IMG/VR virus record: IMGVR_UViG_3300027917_000113
Location: 1-32,616 of that record
Reading direction: 5' to 3' (one strand)
DNA length: 32,616 bases
Source: a virus
The notes under the pieces are model-generated. The model was not told the origin of the DNA and ran no database searches. It worked only from the letters and a program-made list of their open reading frames with translations. The position numbers and the translations under genes were made by a program. Every line of letters starts with the position of its first letter. Position 1 is the stretch's first letter. Shown piece after piece: positions 8,352-24,678 of this stretch.

Positions 8352-8588
8352 GTGCGAGACGAAAAGAGAATAAAAGCCAAGAAATTGAGAAGAGAGTACA
8401 TCAAACAAAAAGGTGAATTCGATGTGAAAGAACACCTCCGGAGACATAAGGCGTTGATCAAGGAACGGAAAAGATTGTTCAAATCGGGAAAAAAGGAAAG
8501 AGAAGAGATCGAGGAAGAAATTGAAAAATGGATCAAAAAACAAAAGAAAGTTAAAAATGGAGAGGAGCTTGAAAATGATGAGGAGTAA
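8352..8588 (+). CDS. Small highly charged helical protein
   Basis: 78 residues from GTG. This start is preferred because GGGAGG (8340-8345) lies six bases upstream, whereas the in-frame TTG at 8334 has no proper site. About half the residues are K, R or E, arranged as one or two long helices (coiled coil likely). No known domain recognised. It starts just after the fibre gene stop and overlaps the next gene's start. Its position between tail and lysis genes might suggest a structural or chaperone role, which is inference only. Confidence 0.6.
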   Translation: MRDEKRIKAKKLRREYIKQKGEFDVKEHLRRHKALIKERKRLFKSGKKEREEIEEEIEKWIKKQKKVKNGEELENDEE

Positions 8589-10677: not shown

Positions 10678-10691
10678 TCCTTCATATAAAT

Positions 10692-10725
10692 GGAGAGTGG
10701 TGTGTTCCCCCGCACATCACTCTCC
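10692..10725 (+). promoter_or_regulatory. 13-bp leader hairpin before the helicase start
   Basis: GGAGAGTGGTGTG (10692-10704) pairs with CACATCACTCTCC (10713-10725), 13 pairs with one G-U, loop TTCCCCCG. It covers the first codons of the longer possible reading frame from ATG 10690, which has no ribosome site, and argues that this stretch is 5' untranslated leader. Confidence 0.65.
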
Positions 10726-10749
10726 GATGCACTTGAGGAAAGAGGTCAT

Positions 10750-16084: not shown

Positions 16085-17040
16085 TGCCAACATTTCACGA
16101 AATTTTCCAAGAGCAAAAAGATTATAACGAAGCTATTCGCAGTCAAAATCCTGAATGGCGTTTGCATAGACACGAATGGGCTGAGACGTATCTTCTTGGA
16201 CTGGTGAGCGAGATCGACGATATTTTGGACAGTCTAAAATGGAAACGTCATCGAAAAGGTGAAGACCCTAGACCTCTTCAGTCAAATTTGAGTAATGACC
16301 TTGCTGATCTCACAAAATATGTTCTATCTTTATGGGAATTATTTGGATTTCCAGCAGATTCTGTTCTGTATTCTGTTCACAATAAAACTCAGGTAATGCA
16401 AGAGCTGTTTCGCCAAGAATTCGAAGAAATACCTACTGACCGTTTAGTTGTCATAACTGATTTGGATGGAACATTAGCTGATTGGAGAGCGTCATTTATT
16501 GATTGGGCATGGGCAATGATGAATGTTAAAATGGAACCAATTGAAGACGGAAGGAGTTCATTGCAATTAGATTCAGACCTTGCTATGAACTATCCTGACT
16601 ATTTTCGGCTGAAAGAAGAATTTGAAAGTGGAGGAAATTACTCAGCACTTAAAATATATGACGATGCTGCTACATTTCTTCATTGGCTAAAGAATGAATT
16701 TCAGGCATATTTCATAGCCCATACTGCTAGACCGTGGAACAGATATTATCGGATATGGGGAGATACGTGGAAATGGATTATGGAGCATAAGCTTCCGATC
16801 GATCAATTAAGGGTTGGTTCAGAGTCCAGAATTTTATTGGCGAGTGAAATAGGAGGTGAAAATGTTTTGATGCTGGAAGATGACCCCGGACTAATGCTTA
16901 GAGCAGCTCATAGCGGAATTCGTGTAGTTGCTCGTAAGCACCCGTACAATGACGGGATTGAACACGAAAATATAACATTCGTCGAGTCTTTACTCGACGC
17001 CAAGGAGAAAATTGAAAATGATTTTACGGCACAAAGATGA
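16084..17040 (+). CDS. MazG-like / HAD 5'-nucleotidase fusion
   Basis: 318 residues, TAATG-coupled to the gene before (ATG 16084). Residues 1-~115 resemble all-alpha NTP pyrophosphatases: ETYLLGLVSEIDDILDSLKW and NDLADLTKYVLSLW carry the acidic metal ligands (E34, E43, D46, D72, D75). Residues ~120-318 are a HAD phosphatase of the 5'(3')-deoxyribonucleotidase kind: TDLDGTLADW (D126, D128), AHTARPW (T214) and LEDDPG (D266, D267). Together they could convert a dNTP to dNMP and then to a nucleoside. Such a fusion is unusual. Its targets are not predictable from sequence. Confidence 0.75.
   Translation: MPTFHEIFQEQKDYNEAIRSQNPEWRLHRHEWAETYLLGLVSEIDDILDSLKWKRHRKGEDPRPLQSNLSNDLADLTKYVLSLWELFGFPADSVLYSVHNKTQVMQELFRQEFEEIPTDRLVVITDLDGTLADWRASFIDWAWAMMNVKMEPIEDGRSSLQLDSDLAMNYPDYFRLKEEFESGGNYSALKIYDDAATFLHWLKNEFQAYFIAHTARPWNRYYRIWGDTWKWIMEHKLPIDQLRVGSESRILLASEIGGENVLMLEDDPGLMLRAAHSGIRVVARKHPYNDGIEHENITFVESLLDAKEKIENDFTAQR
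16981..16998 (+). promoter_or_regulatory. 7-bp hairpin before the RBS of the DUF1599-like gene
   Basis: GTCGAGT (16981-16987) pairs perfectly with ACTCGAC (16992-16998) around CTTT. It lies inside the last codons of the fusion gene, three bases before AAGGAG (17002-17007), the ribosome site of the next gene. Coding sequence tolerates it, which suggests selection on the RNA. Confidence 0.55.
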
Positions 17041-17383
17041 AGGTAAGGAAAAATTACCAAGGACTGAATCAAGCGGTCCAGCAACAATAAAAACGAAAGC
17101 TTTAGATCCTCGGTCACAGCAATTCGACGAAATTGTTGCTTCTGCCAAGGAGCTTTTCTTACAGAAAAACAAGCAGTATGGCGACGCTATTGCTGAAACT
17201 GGTGTTCTCGGCGCTGTTGTTTCTATTGTTGGTTTGAACGCAAGGCTTAAGAAGATCGTTCTTGCCAGCTCAGATGCAGGCAAGTCTCAAGAAGAAGCCT
17301 TGAAGGATATCCTCAAAGATACGCTCAATTATGCTGCGATTGCTGGCATGATGATCATGGACGATAACTGGCGACCTGAGTAA
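17018..17383 (+). CDS. DUF1599/Nmad1-like protein
   Basis: 121 residues from ATG 17018 (AAGGAG ten bases upstream; TTG 17012 is an alternative). After a ~28-residue polar N-terminus comes a helical domain with LFLQKNKQYGDAI, LNARLKKIV and LKDILKDTLNYAAIAGMMI, the pattern I associate with DUF1599, described as a nucleotide-modification-associated domain. It is related in style to MazG-type helical bundles. It lies between the MazG-HAD fusion and ThyX, which fits a role in nucleotide or DNA-base modification. The family match is from memory of motifs. Confidence 0.65.
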   Translation: MILRHKDEGKEKLPRTESSGPATIKTKALDPRSQQFDEIVASAKELFLQKNKQYGDAIAETGVLGAVVSIVGLNARLKKIVLASSDAGKSQEEALKDILKDTLNYAAIAGMMIMDDNWRPE

Positions 17384-17386
17384 ATC

Positions 17387-17408
17387 GAGGGGGCGAACAT
17401 GCCCCCTC
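17387..17408 (+). promoter_or_regulatory. 8-bp GC-rich hairpin before thyX
   Basis: GAGGGGGC (17387-17394) pairs perfectly with GCCCCCTC (17401-17408) around GAACAT. The thyX site GGAG (17415-17418) and ATG 17426 follow. There is no U-run, so it is not a standard terminator. Same placement as the hairpins before the endolysin and polymerase genes. Confidence 0.7.
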
Positions 17409-17425
17409 CATAATGGAGACTCCCA

Positions 17426-18223
17426 ATGAGAGAACAAATTGTCGTAAAAACTGTTGAAATGACGTCGAAAGATGGACCCTACGAAATTCAATTCGTAAAA
17501 CCATCAGCAGCGACTGTAACTCTATGCTCGTTTACGAGTAATCCAAAGAATGTAATGTATCTTACAGTTCGCGGGTATAAAGGATTTTACAATCCAAAAC
17601 CACTCGAATTACCTCCCGACGGATACAATATAACACAAGCATTTGAGGATATTCAGCGAACAAAGTTGCAAACTCCGCTTGAAATGGTTCATACGCTTTG
17701 GCTACTTCAAGATGTTACTCGTGCATTCACTCATCAGCTAGTTCGCTACCGAGTTGGAACTGCATTTGTGCAAGAAAGTATGCGATTCTTCGGTATGCAC
17801 AAAATATTCAAAGTTTTAATTACTGGAAAAGCGGCAGCTGAAACTCACACTGAAAATCAGCTTAGTAATTTCAAAACTTATATGTACGGAATACTCGAAG
17901 CGATCAGTTCATACGTAGACCTATTGGATTGCGGTGTACCAGATGAAGATGCTAGAGGCGTTCTTCCTACGAATATTTTAACGAACATATTCTTTGATTG
18001 TTCATTTAGAACGTTGCAGAATATTTTTCCACAGAGATTATGTTGTCAAGCTCAGCAAGGAGAATGGCAACCTATTCTCCGAGATATGCGACAACAAATC
18101 AAAGATCATATGGGCGAAGAATTAGAAGGATTACTGCGAGCTCCCTACGAAAAAGGCGAAGACTGCGGATACAGAGCCTCATTCGACCGTCCCTGCATTT
18201 GGACGCAAAAGGTAGATAAATGA
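17426..18223 (+). CDS. thyX: Flavin-dependent thymidylate synthase-like protein (ThyX)
   Basis: 265 residues, within the usual ThyX range. ThyX methylates dUMP to dTMP using methylene-THF and FAD. The signature region is at 107-121, RYRVGTAFVQESMRF, against the usual RHRxxSxNExSxRY: His is Tyr, Asn is Val, the final Tyr is Phe, and the motif is one residue longer. Conserved partner segments upstream (MVHTLWLLQDVTRAFTHQL) and the C-terminal R/Q-rich helix (LRDMRQQIKDHM) are present. It may be a true dTMP synthase or a related pyrimidine C5-modifying enzyme. GGAG is seven bases before the ATG; the stop overlaps the next start (ATGA). Confidence 0.85.
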   Translation: MREQIVVKTVEMTSKDGPYEIQFVKPSAATVTLCSFTSNPKNVMYLTVRGYKGFYNPKPLELPPDGYNITQAFEDIQRTKLQTPLEMVHTLWLLQDVTRAFTHQLVRYRVGTAFVQESMRFFGMHKIFKVLITGKAAAETHTENQLSNFKTYMYGILEAISSYVDLLDCGVPDEDARGVLPTNILTNIFFDCSFRTLQNIFPQRLCCQAQQGEWQPILRDMRQQIKDHMGEELEGLLRAPYEKGEDCGYRASFDRPCIWTQKVDK

Positions 18224-18483
18224 GCATACCCTACTATTCTAAACAGACTGGAATACAAGTTCATGATGGGGGTGGTTTTTACGTCATTCTCGACAAACCT
18301 GTCGTTGACGCTATGGATACTGAGCTTTGGGAAGTTTTTGAGTCGGTCAAACAAAAGTGTGCCGAGGAACTGAAGATTTTTCTAGATTTCGGCGAGATTT
18401 TTTATGCGCTCTCTCCTGACGGAGATAAAACGTATGTTATCAATTTTATCTCTGTGGGGAAGCGCGAGGAATTTTTATCATGA
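18220..18483 (+). CDS. Hypothetical protein
   Basis: 87 residues, ATGA-coupled to thyX and to the next gene, so translated as part of the same transcript. Predicted to alternate beta and helix: QVHDGGGFYVILDKPVV, a helix around ELWEVFESVKQKCAEEL, and a final strand KTYVINFISV. No membrane segment, no CxxC pairs, no family recognised. Confidence 0.65.
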   Translation: MSIPYYSKQTGIQVHDGGGFYVILDKPVVDAMDTELWEVFESVKQKCAEELKIFLDFGEIFYALSPDGDKTYVINFISVGKREEFLS

Positions 18484-18662
18484 TTATATTGTCTTGTAAA
18501 TACTGCGGATGCTTAGAACTGGATCCGCTAAAGAACTTTTATGAAGCTTCGTGTACTCAATGCGGTCGTAGTCTTTATTTATGGCAAATGAAACCTATAC
18601 TTGTCTCGCGCCCAGAGTCCGAATTAAAGGATACAAATCTGAGCAAAATACAGGTAAAATAG
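18480..18662 (+). CDS. Small zinc-ribbon protein
   Basis: 60 residues, ATGA overlap with the gene before. Two CxxC knuckles, CKYC (6-9) and CTQC (25-28), 15 residues apart, form a minimal zinc ribbon. The C-terminal half is polar. It is the last gene before the leader of the DNA polymerase gene, and its stop lies within the duplicated RNA element (18660-18730). Such ribbons bind nucleic acid or proteins; the role here is unknown. Confidence 0.65.
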   Translation: MIILSCKYCGCLELDPLKNFYEASCTQCGRSLYLWQMKPILVSRPESELKDTNLSKIQVK

Positions 18663-18730
18663 GGGTAGGGCATAGTACCTGTCGAATAAATAAGAGCCGC
18701 ATAGAAGCGTGGGGAAGTCTGCTTTTTATC
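18660..18730 (+). promoter_or_regulatory. Duplicated RNA element, copy A (upstream of DNA polymerase)
   Basis: A ~71-base leader element that recurs at 24373-24443. It contains TAGGGGTAG (18660), a GGTA/TACC hairpin (18664-18667/18676-18679; ACAGGTA at 18650-18656 can alternatively pair with TACCTGT at 18676-18682), then ATAGAAGC, TGGGGAA and TTTTTATC at 18701-18730. Spacing from the first to the last block is identical in both copies (41 bases). It could be an attenuator, antiterminator or protein-binding leader. No known riboswitch class was recognised. Confidence 0.6.
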
Positions 18731-18745
18731 TTGAAAATGTGTTTT

Positions 18746-18762
18746 TGCGCTTACAATGCGCA
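18746..18762 (+). promoter_or_regulatory. Hairpin before the DNA polymerase RBS
   Basis: TGCGC (18746-18750) pairs with GCGCA (18758-18762) around the 7-nt loop TTACAAT, followed one base later by the GGAG site (18764-18767) for ATG 18774. It covers the alternative upstream ATG 18756 and so supports the later start. Confidence 0.55.
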
Positions 18763-18773
18763 CGGAGATTGCT

Positions 18774-20669
18774 ATGGCGGATATGACTTATAAAATATAC
18801 GATCCGGACATCCTCCCAAAGTGTAGTGGACATCAGGTAGTTTTAGATACAGAAACTACCGGTCTAAAATGGTACAGACCGGGAATTCACATTAATGGTG
18901 TCGGTATAGAATGTCCAACAGCAGGTATTCATGGCTTCATTCACTGTATGGATGAACGTAGGCGTGAATGGGTTTACGAAGAAGTGCAAAAGATCGATAA
19001 GGGAACAACTGTTATCATGCACAATGCAAAATTTGATTTGCACTTTTTGAAAACTGATCCTGAAAAATTAGGGTGGAATGTTCGCGATATTCCAGTTATG
19101 CTCTCCAATATTGATAGTAGACCACAGCATAAGAGAGCTTTGGCTTTCGCTGAAAATCTGTACTTGGGTACAGATAGTAAACGTCAACACTTATTCAATG
19201 CACCGAGCAGAAAGAAAATTTGGGAGTGGGATCCAGAAGTTCGCGCAGATTACGGATACAATGATGCTCTGGTAACTTTTCAATTATACGAAAAATTACA
19301 ACCCATGTTAGAAGCTTTGAAAGTATGGCGAATTTTCTTGAAAGATATGGAATTTCTTAAAGTAATTTGGAAAGCAGAAAATTATGGAATTGTGCTTGAC
19401 CTCGATTTCATAGAAAGGGCTATTCCTAAACAGGCTCAGCACGTAGATGTCTTTGAGAATGATCTATGGGATGCATGTGGTTATGAATTTAATTGGAGAT
19501 CTCATCAGCAACTTAGTGATGCTATTTACAGAAATCTTGGGATTTCTAAGCCTAAAAATCCATTTGCTGACGCAGATGGTGTTGACCGCAGTAAGCTCGC
19601 TGATAAGGGTCTTTACAAATCTACTTGTACTTCCACTTTTCTTTTGCGAGAAAAGGTTAAACATCCTCTTGCCGATAATGTTGCAAATCTTCGTGAAGCC
19701 TATCGAATGCTTCGTACAATGGAGAAATATGCGGAACTAATTGACGAGGATGAAAATGCTGTCCATGCAAACTTCAAGCAAGCACGAACAAGAACTCATA
19801 GGCTTTCATGTTCAGACCCTAACCTCCAGAATGTACCAAGTCAAGTTCGCGGTAGATTTACTCAAAGTGTCTATTCAGGCGACACTACTCGCCTTGAAGA
19901 ATATAACCTAAGAACTGCATTTTGCGCACGACCTGGAAAGAAGTTACTCAGCGTGGATTATAAGCAAATGGAAATGCGGATGTTCGGAATACTCGCCGAA
20001 GACCCGTTTATGCTCGAGGCACTTGGCGCAGGGAAAGACATACATGCTGAAATCGCCGCTAAAGTTTGGGGAAAAGTAAATAAGACCACACGTGAATGGA
20101 GCAAGACTATCGGGTTTGGGCTTGTTTACGGTATGACCGTTGGTTCTTTGATGTTCAAGCTAAATCAGACACATAAGCAAGCCAAGAGAATTCGCGATGA
20201 TTACGTCCGAGAATTTCCCCGCATTATGCCTTGGATGGCTGAGGTCATAACTGAATGCGGTCGTGCAAACATGATCAGATACTGGGATGGGAAAATTTGG
20301 AGAGAGTCAAATCCTATGTATCGCTACAAAGCGGCGAATGCAAAGATTCAAGGTGGATGCGCTGAAATTCTATCTATTGCTGGCATTCGCGTAAATGAAT
20401 GGTGTAAGAAACAAGGGGATGACCATAAAATTGTGAATTTTGTTCATGACGAATTAATGCTAGAAGTACCTGAAGAGGACGTCATTCGCTCAGCTCAGGA
20501 GGTTGGAAAAATTATGGAAGTTGACGACTTGTTTATTGTTCCATTTTATACTGACGCCAAAGCTGGCGATAACTACGGAAATCAAGAGAAATTATTCGGT
20601 AAAGCTTCATACGAAACGGCGGAGGATGCAAAATTGACAACGGCGGTGAAGCTAAATGACAGACGCTGA
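18774..20669 (+). CDS. polA: Family A DNA polymerase
   Basis: 631 residues from ATG 18774 (GGAG six bases upstream; ATG 18756 lies in a hairpin without a site). 3'-5' exonuclease: VLDTETTG (D25, E27), MHNAKFD and YGYNDALVTF. Polymerase: TRTHRLSCSDPNLQNVP, motif A VDYKQMEMR (D395), motif B REWSKTIGFGLVYG (R440, K444, F448, Y452) and motif C VHDELMLEV (H558, D559). No 5'-3' exonuclease domain. The position equal to E. coli Pol I F762 is Phe (F448), the ancestral state. It replicates phage DNA together with the primase-helicase, whose start overlaps its end by 14 bases. Confidence 0.95.
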   Translation: MADMTYKIYDPDILPKCSGHQVVLDTETTGLKWYRPGIHINGVGIECPTAGIHGFIHCMDERRREWVYEEVQKIDKGTTVIMHNAKFDLHFLKTDPEKLGWNVRDIPVMLSNIDSRPQHKRALAFAENLYLGTDSKRQHLFNAPSRKKIWEWDPEVRADYGYNDALVTFQLYEKLQPMLEALKVWRIFLKDMEFLKVIWKAENYGIVLDLDFIERAIPKQAQHVDVFENDLWDACGYEFNWRSHQQLSDAIYRNLGISKPKNPFADADGVDRSKLADKGLYKSTCTSTFLLREKVKHPLADNVANLREAYRMLRTMEKYAELIDEDENAVHANFKQARTRTHRLSCSDPNLQNVPSQVRGRFTQSVYSGDTTRLEEYNLRTAFCARPGKKLLSVDYKQMEMRMFGILAEDPFMLEALGAGKDIHAEIAAKVWGKVNKTTREWSKTIGFGLVYGMTVGSLMFKLNQTHKQAKRIRDDYVREFPRIMPWMAEVITECGRANMIRYWDGKIWRESNPMYRYKAANAKIQGGCAEILSIAGIRVNEWCKKQGDDHKIVNFVHDELMLEVPEEDVIRSAQEVGKIMEVDDLFIVPFYTDAKAGDNYGNQEKLFGKASYETAEDAKLTTAVKLNDRR

Positions 20670-23249: not shown

Positions 23250-23783
23250 ATGAGCAAAATGATTGTTTTCACTTTGATAATTTCCATTCTGCTGTCCGCT
23301 TGTGCAGCCGTGGAATCTGGAGCTTCGAATGCTCCAACGTATGGTCAAGTATTCGAACTTCAATTACAATCTACTCTCTGGGGAATGCAGCAAGCCGCGA
23401 AAGGTGCTAGCGGAACAAGCATCTTTCAAAAAGATAATTTGATAACTTTTCTATGGACACTAAAAGATGGATGGGCATTCGTAACCATTGACATATCATC
23501 GTCGAATCCGGTGAAACAATTTATAGACTTGAGTGGTCGTGGAAATTTTGTTAATCCTCGCTCCATGAGCGATATAGTCAGAGGCATGACCGAAAGTGGT
23601 TGGAGAGTTATTCCAGCATCACAACTTCCTGAAGTTGTTGTCACTGCACTTCAACCAGGATCGTCATTACTTGGACTTGCTGCTGGAGGTACTACTTCAC
23701 TTTTGGTAGTCCCTGCGGATATCCTAATGACTCCCCCTATTCTCAGAGAATATCAAGAGGCAACGATCGGAATTGACGGATGA
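23250..23783 (+). CDS. Phage-encoded lipoprotein
   Basis: 177 residues, GGAGG six bases before the ATG. N-terminus: one lysine, a hydrophobic stretch and the lipobox LLSAC, with cysteine 18 as the lipidated residue, followed by AAVES. The mature part mixes beta segments (AFVTIDISSSN) with a hydrophobic C-terminal stretch (LLGLAAGGTTSLLVVPADIL). It would be anchored on the outer face of the host membrane. Surface lipoproteins of phages often block superinfection, but no known exclusion family was recognised. First gene after promoter P2. Confidence 0.7.
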   Translation: MSKMIVFTLIISILLSACAAVESGASNAPTYGQVFELQLQSTLWGMQQAAKGASGTSIFQKDNLITFLWTLKDGWAFVTIDISSSNPVKQFIDLSGRGNFVNPRSMSDIVRGMTESGWRVIPASQLPEVVVTALQPGSSLLGLAAGGTTSLLVVPADILMTPPILREYQEATIGIDG

Positions 23784-24052
23784 GGATTTTAGAGTATTTT
23801 CCTCTTCACGTAGTTCTGTTGTTGTGGCTGCATATCCGATTCGGTCGGTCTAAAAATCTAGCCAGTATTGATCGTGGAATGTTATTGCAAACAGAGATTT
23901 GGCTTCTGCAACTGAAAGATGAGGTTGAACGTTCTGAAGAGACGTTTCTAAAAAATTGGCTAGTGGATCAAATCGTAAACCAAATTGAAGTGGTAAAGAA
24001 GATGCTTACGATGGGAACAATTTCTATTGGTTTTATCGAAAAGGATAAGTAG
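23780..24052 (+). CDS. Hypothetical protein with hydrophobic N-terminus
   Basis: 90 residues, ATGA-coupled to the lipoprotein gene. Residues 5-22 (EYFPLHVVLLLWLHIRFG) may be a membrane helix or amphipathic anchor. The rest is helical and charged (LQLKDEVERSEETFLKNWLVDQ), ending with a short hydrophobic strand. Likely a membrane-associated partner of the lipoprotein; no family recognised. The structured RNA region starts eight bases after its stop. Confidence 0.6.
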   Translation: MRILEYFPLHVVLLLWLHIRFGRSKNLASIDRGMLLQTEIWLLQLKDEVERSEETFLKNWLVDQIVNQIEVVKKMLTMGTISIGFIEKDK

Positions 24053-24060
24053 TCCATGTC

Positions 24061-24259
24061 TGACTCATTCGTGAACGGGTGCATGCACCCCCGACCTGCA
24101 TATACGATGAGTTGGAATAACGGAGACCACAAGACTTAGATGAGAAGAAAGGGATTGTGGTCTCCAAATACAGGCTTGTCTCCAACAATAAAGTTCGATA
24201 CGTTGCGATAAGGCGTTGATCGGAACGGTAGGGAGGCGAGCCTGTATTTGGAGGATATT
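24061..24259 (+). promoter_or_regulatory. Structured leader RNA with overlapping alternative stems
   Basis: Part of a 440-base stretch (24053-24492) without a long gene. Stem 1: ACTCAT+CGT (24063-24072, one bulge) with 24104-24112, enclosing the palindrome at 24077-24090. Stem 2: GGAGACCACAA (24122-24132) with TTGTGGTCTCC (24155-24165), 11 perfect pairs. Stem 3: 24162-24183 with 24232-24253, 22 continuous pairs including two G-U, with a sub-hairpin GTTC/GAAC inside. Stems 2 and 3 share bases 24162-24165 and cannot form fully together. Stem 3 buries the GGAGG site (24250-24254) of the small gene at 24260, the layout of a translational switch. Confidence 0.75.
24077..24090. repeat. Perfect 14-bp palindrome
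   Basis: GGGTGCATGCACCC reads the same on both strands. It may be the tip of stem 1 in the RNA or a DNA site for a dimeric protein. It lies between two coding blocks in a region otherwise without genes. Confidence 0.6.
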
Positions 24260-24382
24260 GTGTTCAACAAAATATGGCAACGAATATTAATTTCATTACC
24301 TGCAATAGCTCTAGCTCTTAATCGGATGTGGGCTGAATTCAAGAAGCTGGTAGGGCTAAACAGGATGAAAATTAGGGGGTAG
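24260..24382 (+). CDS. Small basic hydrophobic peptide, 40 residues
   Basis: Starts at GTG 24260, five bases after GGAGG (24250-24254). The product has a basic N-terminus (FNKIWQR), a hydrophobic core (ILISLPAIALAL) and a basic C-terminus (EFKKLVGLNRMKIRG), which suggests a membrane peptide. It has no acidic residue except one Glu. Its ribosome site is fully paired in the 22-bp leader stem, so expression would need refolding. Its stop lies inside RNA element copy B. It could also be a regulatory or leader peptide, or a chance frame; the RBS-start pair is the main support. Confidence 0.5.
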   Translation: MFNKIWQRILISLPAIALALNRMWAEFKKLVGLNRMKIRG

Positions 24383-24492: not shown

Positions 24493-24678
24493 ATGCGAGA
24501 TCTAAATCCTAGATTTCTCCTAGTAACATTCATAACACTATTCGTCAGTGGCTGTGCAGGTGTGACCGTAGGTATTATGGTTTCTGATTGGATAGCTGGT
24601 CTTATTGCTTTTGCTATATCTTATTGGATAGTCCTTATTGTTATTTCTGCGATAACGGAGCCACGACGAAATGACTAA
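24493..24678 (+). CDS. Small membrane protein / possible lipoprotein
   Basis: 61 residues. A first hydrophobic stretch ends in VSGC (cysteine 21), a plausible lipobox, and a second membrane helix (WIAGLIAFAISYWIVLIVIS) covers residues ~33-52. The tail is short and charged (EPRRND). The ribosome site is weak (AGG). It overlaps the next gene by eight bases. Function unknown; topology suggests a membrane-anchored phage accessory factor. Confidence 0.6.
   Translation: MRDLNPRFLLVTFITLFVSGCAGVTVGIMVSDWIAGLIAFAISYWIVLIVISAITEPRRND

Follow-up and report, generated by a model that had tools for sequence, protein, structure and literature searches.

Two hairpins lie close together in an intergenic gap of a phage genome, the second of them ending on a Shine-Dalgarno-like (SD) sequence: do they act as a switch on that ribosome binding site, and if so, in which direction? 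The locus belongs to an IMG/VR record that as a whole constitutes the window analysed here, a stretch of 32,616 bases whose ends are classed as linear. The + strand carries most of its likely genes; matches were obtained for an endolysin, a helicase, a primase and a polymerase I, and other ORFs include one that is tape-measure-like, as judged by length and position, plus further ORFs of the tail region. The hairpin pair falls between a 90-aa ORF (23780–24052) and a 61-aa lipoprotein-like ORF (24493–24678), with the primase gene upstream. At the high-GC start of the record, positions 1–330 code for the N-terminal portion of a GTPase of bacterial type (FeoB_N/MMR_HSR1 match); the stretch is either the edge of a provirus or a chimeric assembly.

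Both hairpins are read here on the + strand. Hairpin 1 is formed by a 5′ arm, GGAGACCACAA (24122–24132), and a 3′ arm, TTGTGGTCTCC (24155–24165), and it is perfect, with 11 Watson-Crick pairs, as an earlier note on this DNA had claimed. Hairpin 2, the long stem, is an inverted repeat with arms of 22 nt (24162–24183 and 24232–24253) and a spacer of 48 nt; its coordinates and its 22 pairs agree with that note, which had counted it as a plain 22-bp stem, except that 20 are Watson-Crick pairs and two are G-U pairs (24177/24238 and 24179/24236). A further, inner hairpin folds within its loop at 24194–24226, around TTCGATACG...CGTTGATCGGAA. The sharing of bases 24162–24165 by the two stems was likewise confirmed, and so was the GGAGG at 24250–24254, which closes the 3′ arm of the long stem and precedes a GTG at 24260 with a spacing of 5 nt. 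The four shared bases, CTCC, form an anti-SD with two possible partners: GGAG at 24250–24253, which is the SD itself, or GGAG at 24122–24125, a mimic of the SD at the foot of hairpin 1.

Chance origin of these hairpins is excluded. The long hairpin is the strongest in the window, with a score of 54 against 29–33 for the best hairpin of each dinucleotide shuffle (n = 8); RNA folding gave z-scores of −8.74 for 148 nt and −9.62 for the 97-nt stem, and none of 200 shuffles was equally stable. The expectation that so long a stem would hardly arise by chance is thereby borne out. Among the window's inverted repeats, the long one has no duplicate. The GGAG foot of hairpin 1, which creates the overlap, has a chance of ∼0.5–0.8% by a rough estimate from base composition. 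A search with the Rfam covariance models returned nothing at the gathering threshold, the best match below it having an E-value of 9.1, which is chance level; this agrees with the view that no known riboswitch class is present. A classical intrinsic terminator was considered and rejected, since no T-run follows the stem.

The computed energetics support the proposal of a two-state structure around the ribosome binding site, and they change how it would work. Two complete alternative folds have energies of −45.8 and −45.4 kcal/mol, a difference of 0.4 kcal/mol. The stems had been described as mutually exclusive; instead the minimum-energy fold holds them side by side, with 11 pairs in hairpin 1 and the 18 outer pairs remaining to hairpin 2, and leaves GGAGG and GTG unpaired, so that the contest is limited to four base pairs. 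The four CTCC bases pair with hairpin 1 at probabilities of 0.82–0.37 and with the SD at 0.18–0.63. It had also been held that the upstream stem would free no more than the base of the long stem. The contested bases are the anti-SD, however, and hairpin 1 is therefore predicted to open the SD itself.

How readily the SD opens depends on where the RNA begins. With a 5′ end at or upstream of 24122, opening costs a computed 1.4–2.3 kcal/mol; with a 5′ end at 24126–24160, which removes the 5′ arm of hairpin 1, the cost is 8.5–11.9 kcal/mol, and masking of that arm brings the computed probability of an open SD to ∼1e-8 to 1e-6. Opening is thus cheap with hairpin 1 intact and costly without its 5′ arm, which gives this hairpin the look of an SD derepressor. 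The earlier suggestion that opening needs a trigger is accordingly reversed: in principle none is needed, and it is closing that needs one, in that the 5′ arm of hairpin 1 must be lost or masked. In read-through RNAs the SD is open with a probability of ∼3–11%; in all RNAs for which it was computed, joint unpairing of SD and start codon is rare. When folding was followed in a growing chain, hairpin 1 had formed fully once 24165 was reached and persisted to 24254. The probability of an open SD is 1% at 15°C and climbs smoothly to 17.5% at 55°C, a gradual rise that does not point to a sharp RNA thermometer.

The reading that we regard as best supported, with a probability of about 0.42, is that of a 5′ leader RNA gating a ribosome binding site by shuttling the four bases CTCC between two partners. 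In read-through RNA arriving from upstream, hairpin 1 would fold first and capture CTCC; the long stem would then close with 18 pairs, leaving the SD bare beside the stack in an open state. CTCC would be freed wherever hairpin 1 lacks its 5′ arm, as in an RNA begun or cut within 24126–24160, or has that arm covered, for example by a ribosome terminating a 27-codon ORF within the hairpin loop. Once freed, it would allow the long stem to extend across the SD, giving a closed state. Computation gives the pairings, the closeness of the two energies and the reliance on the 5′ arm of hairpin 1; the existence of such RNAs, the trigger for the change and translation from the GTG at 24260 are what we infer. 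If the shuttle works as computed, it would be a compact and easily tested form of translation control: by holding the anti-SD, the upstream hairpin would relieve repression, with a sharp dependence on the RNA 5′ end.

The GTG opens a 40-codon ORF (24260–24382, + strand), the candidate target, which the earlier note had described as encoding a hydrophobic peptide of 40 residues. The start codon and ideally spaced SD stand; its status as a coding sequence is doubtful. Its codon usage lies below that of all 1,300–1,450 true-frame segments of the phage, both overall and when synonymous choice alone is scored; the top mean hydropathy over 15 residues is 1.7; Pfam gave no match for it, and tblastn found none in the phage collection. 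Short atypical peptides can fail codon tests, and codon usage is low also in the neighbouring 90-aa ORF, so that coding is made less likely rather than excluded. Upstream, a possible leader ORF of 27 codons (24056–24139, + strand) begins with an ATG 3 nt past the stop of the 90-aa ORF, with AGGA 10 nt before it, and its own stop, TAG at 24137–24139, falls within the hairpin 1 loop. It is an uncertain coding sequence as well, since its codon usage is unlike that of the phage (1st percentile). No promoter near the leader stands out from chance level in a consensus scan. A check for antisense RNA yielded one minus-strand promoter-like match, at 24280–24252, again at chance level.

The main rival explanation takes the hairpins as intergenic structures for RNA processing, mRNA protection or the marking of an operon boundary (RNase III targets, for example), with the SD-like GGAGG and the 40-aa ORF incidental and the 61-aa ORF at 24493 as the real downstream gene. 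It draws strength from the non-coding-like codon usage of the 40-aa ORF, set beside the acceptable usage of 24493–24678, from the lack of a T-run, which makes a terminator unlikely, and from sister phages that carry strong operon-boundary hairpins with compensatory changes, such as the one between endolysin and helicase. It must leave as coincidence both that an SD lies exactly at the stem foot at ideal spacing to a start and that the same sequence is repeated at the foot of hairpin 1, and we judge it on balance unlikely. A ligand-sensing riboswitch of unknown class would fit the two nearly isoenergetic folds and the absence of matches to known families in Rfam; we could find no conserved aptamer-like core, no relatives and no metabolite-linked gene alongside the hairpins, and this reading is highly improbable.

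Another rival turns on a sequence element that recurs in this phage lineage. Its core of ∼20 nt, WTAGAAGCGTAsRGARGY, occurs at 18700 and 24413 of the window, at L015:9909, L016:16653 and 19742, L035:3912 and 10751 and L011:7723, and on the minus strand at L031:3953; pattern scans for it returned the known lineage, plus apparent chance matches in coding sequence. A possible further copy, ATCGGAACGGTAGGGAGGCGAGCC (consensus ATTAGAAGCGTAGGGAAGCGTACA), lies within the long hairpin at 24219–24242 (+ strand); with a score of 12.7 it is weak, and it was seen after the fact. A match of this quality has a chance of ∼4e-5 per position and ∼0.007 for the gap. Such an element could be a promoter or operator site acting at the DNA level, the long inverted repeat binding a protein or forming a cruciform. 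In keeping with this, the core is found in six related phages and lies upstream of polA in four (the window, L015, L035 and, on the opposite strand, L031), several of its copies follow a TATAAT-like box by 29–35 nt, and four inverted repeats were observed near cores against 0.39 expected from random placement, the four including the hairpin under study. Against it, the copy inside the hairpin ranks ∼20th genome-wide, and copies of the element do not have the long stem in common, so that we hold a DNA site to be distinctly unlikely. RNA structure as a shared property of the copies was also rejected: the regions 18640–18770 and 24370–24495 fold no better than shuffles. As nothing notable in structure marks the copies at 18700 and 24413, the recurrent element and the long hairpin may be independent features.

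The remaining rival is timing of the kind known for T4 gene e, in which the SD would be hidden in read-through RNA and a promoter between the arms would supply a shorter RNA, without the 5′ arm, for late translation. This arrangement has a documented precedent in T4 (PMC3014915), and the window offers AACAATAAAG at 24184–24193, whose offset to the core is about that of TATAATAAAG in L016. That box is a poor −10-like sequence, however, and the consensus scan placed no + strand promoter in the loop. Read-through RNA has two near-equal states, the SD being open in the minimum-energy fold. RNAs begun inside the loop (24184–24215) pay 2.4–4.1 kcal/mol to open the SD because of other pairing, which is no less than read-through RNA pays, and we judge this mode of control improbable.

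Set against known systems, the proposed shuttle has partial likenesses. In translational attenuation of the ermC type, a short leader ORF ends in the first of the hairpins, and masking alters access to the SD; here the sign is opposite, masking being predicted to close the SD, and the leader ORF lacks support from codon usage. In T4, leader hairpins hide the SD of gene e (lysozyme), soc, 49 and I-TevI (PMC3014915). Both there and here, phage mRNA leaders have a stable helix that can hide the SD, whereas in the present leader the anti-SD is contested by a further hairpin upstream, no internal promoter is convincing and the target is not a known gene. Competing anti-SD pairings and metastable hairpins are found in the type I toxin mRNAs aapA3 and hok (PMC6733600). 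These share with the present leader a short hydrophobic ORF behind a structured leader, the competition for the anti-SD and a change of state that would follow from trimming of the RNA; they differ in that the present locus offers no toxin homology and no convincing antisense RNA, and its ORF looks non-coding. The extended start-associated sequences of cluster K mycobacteriophages, repeated sites with a 17-bp consensus and spacers mostly of 4–13 bp (PMC3203893), are likewise inverted repeats just upstream of phage start codons, but the repeat described here is unique in its genome, with 22-nt arms and a 48-nt spacer. The element works like SD-hiding phage leaders (PMC3014915) and like the competing anti-SD pairings of type I toxin mRNAs (PMC6733600), both already established, yet cannot be filed with either, since an internal promoter, an antitoxin RNA and a real target gene could not be established. 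What sets it apart is the hairpin upstream, which carries a repeat of the SD and keeps hold of the anti-SD.

Related phages were retrieved by searches with the helicase, the polymerase and a primase alignment (identities of 40–77% for the polymerase and 32–62% for the primase). None of these searches found a homologous hairpin locus: the gap with the hairpins is absent or different in the checked relatives that cover this place, and the contig of the nearest relative, L015 (polymerase 77%), stops before the region. Close relatives of the primase and of a 248-aa neighbour were sought among viral contigs and none were found, a DNA pattern built from the 5′ arm had no match there, and among genome contigs the polymerase search gave cellular-type Pol I only, at 25–31% identity.

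Other stable leader hairpins recur in the lineage shortly ahead of start codons, which speaks for the gating reading. One occupies a conserved position in the gap between endolysin and helicase (10691–10726 of the window, L015:151–188 and L002:9946–9974); no T-run follows it, and our reading of the aligned arms shows compensatory changes at several pairs. L023 has a different hairpin at 1852. Another, of 15–16 pairs, precedes the gene just upstream of a tape-measure-like ORF in three phages, at L011:11255–11330, L077:11460–11545 (minus strand) and L079:3170–3242; from its position, that gene is likely a tail assembly chaperone. This leader hairpin is two-tiered, with compensatory changes, and its apical loop, CUACUCUCC or UUUCUCC (ACTCTCC or TTTCTCC in DNA), is complementary to the following SD over 5–8 pairs. 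The complementarity makes a pseudoknot gating the ribosome binding site, conserved in the three phages, possible. A broader idea would be that the lineage controls several genes by start-proximal leader structures and that, at the present locus, a ribosome ending the 27-codon ORF frees the anti-SD and shuts the downstream start, an off-switch by strand shuttle; we give it little weight. The locus also draws attention to a phage lineage that has been little studied and whose start-proximal leader hairpins recur, with compensatory changes.

Two further repeats were seen among the relatives. At the very end of its contig, L081 carries a perfect 26-bp palindrome with a 4-nt loop (8458–8513), which is either an assembly fold-back or a hairpin end. 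In a more distant relative, L020, the region 16609–19880 holds a repeated intergenic unit (GGCCAAAAGTACTATTTGCGGGAAAAGTTTA) together with a 24-bp inverted repeat, resembling REP sequences.
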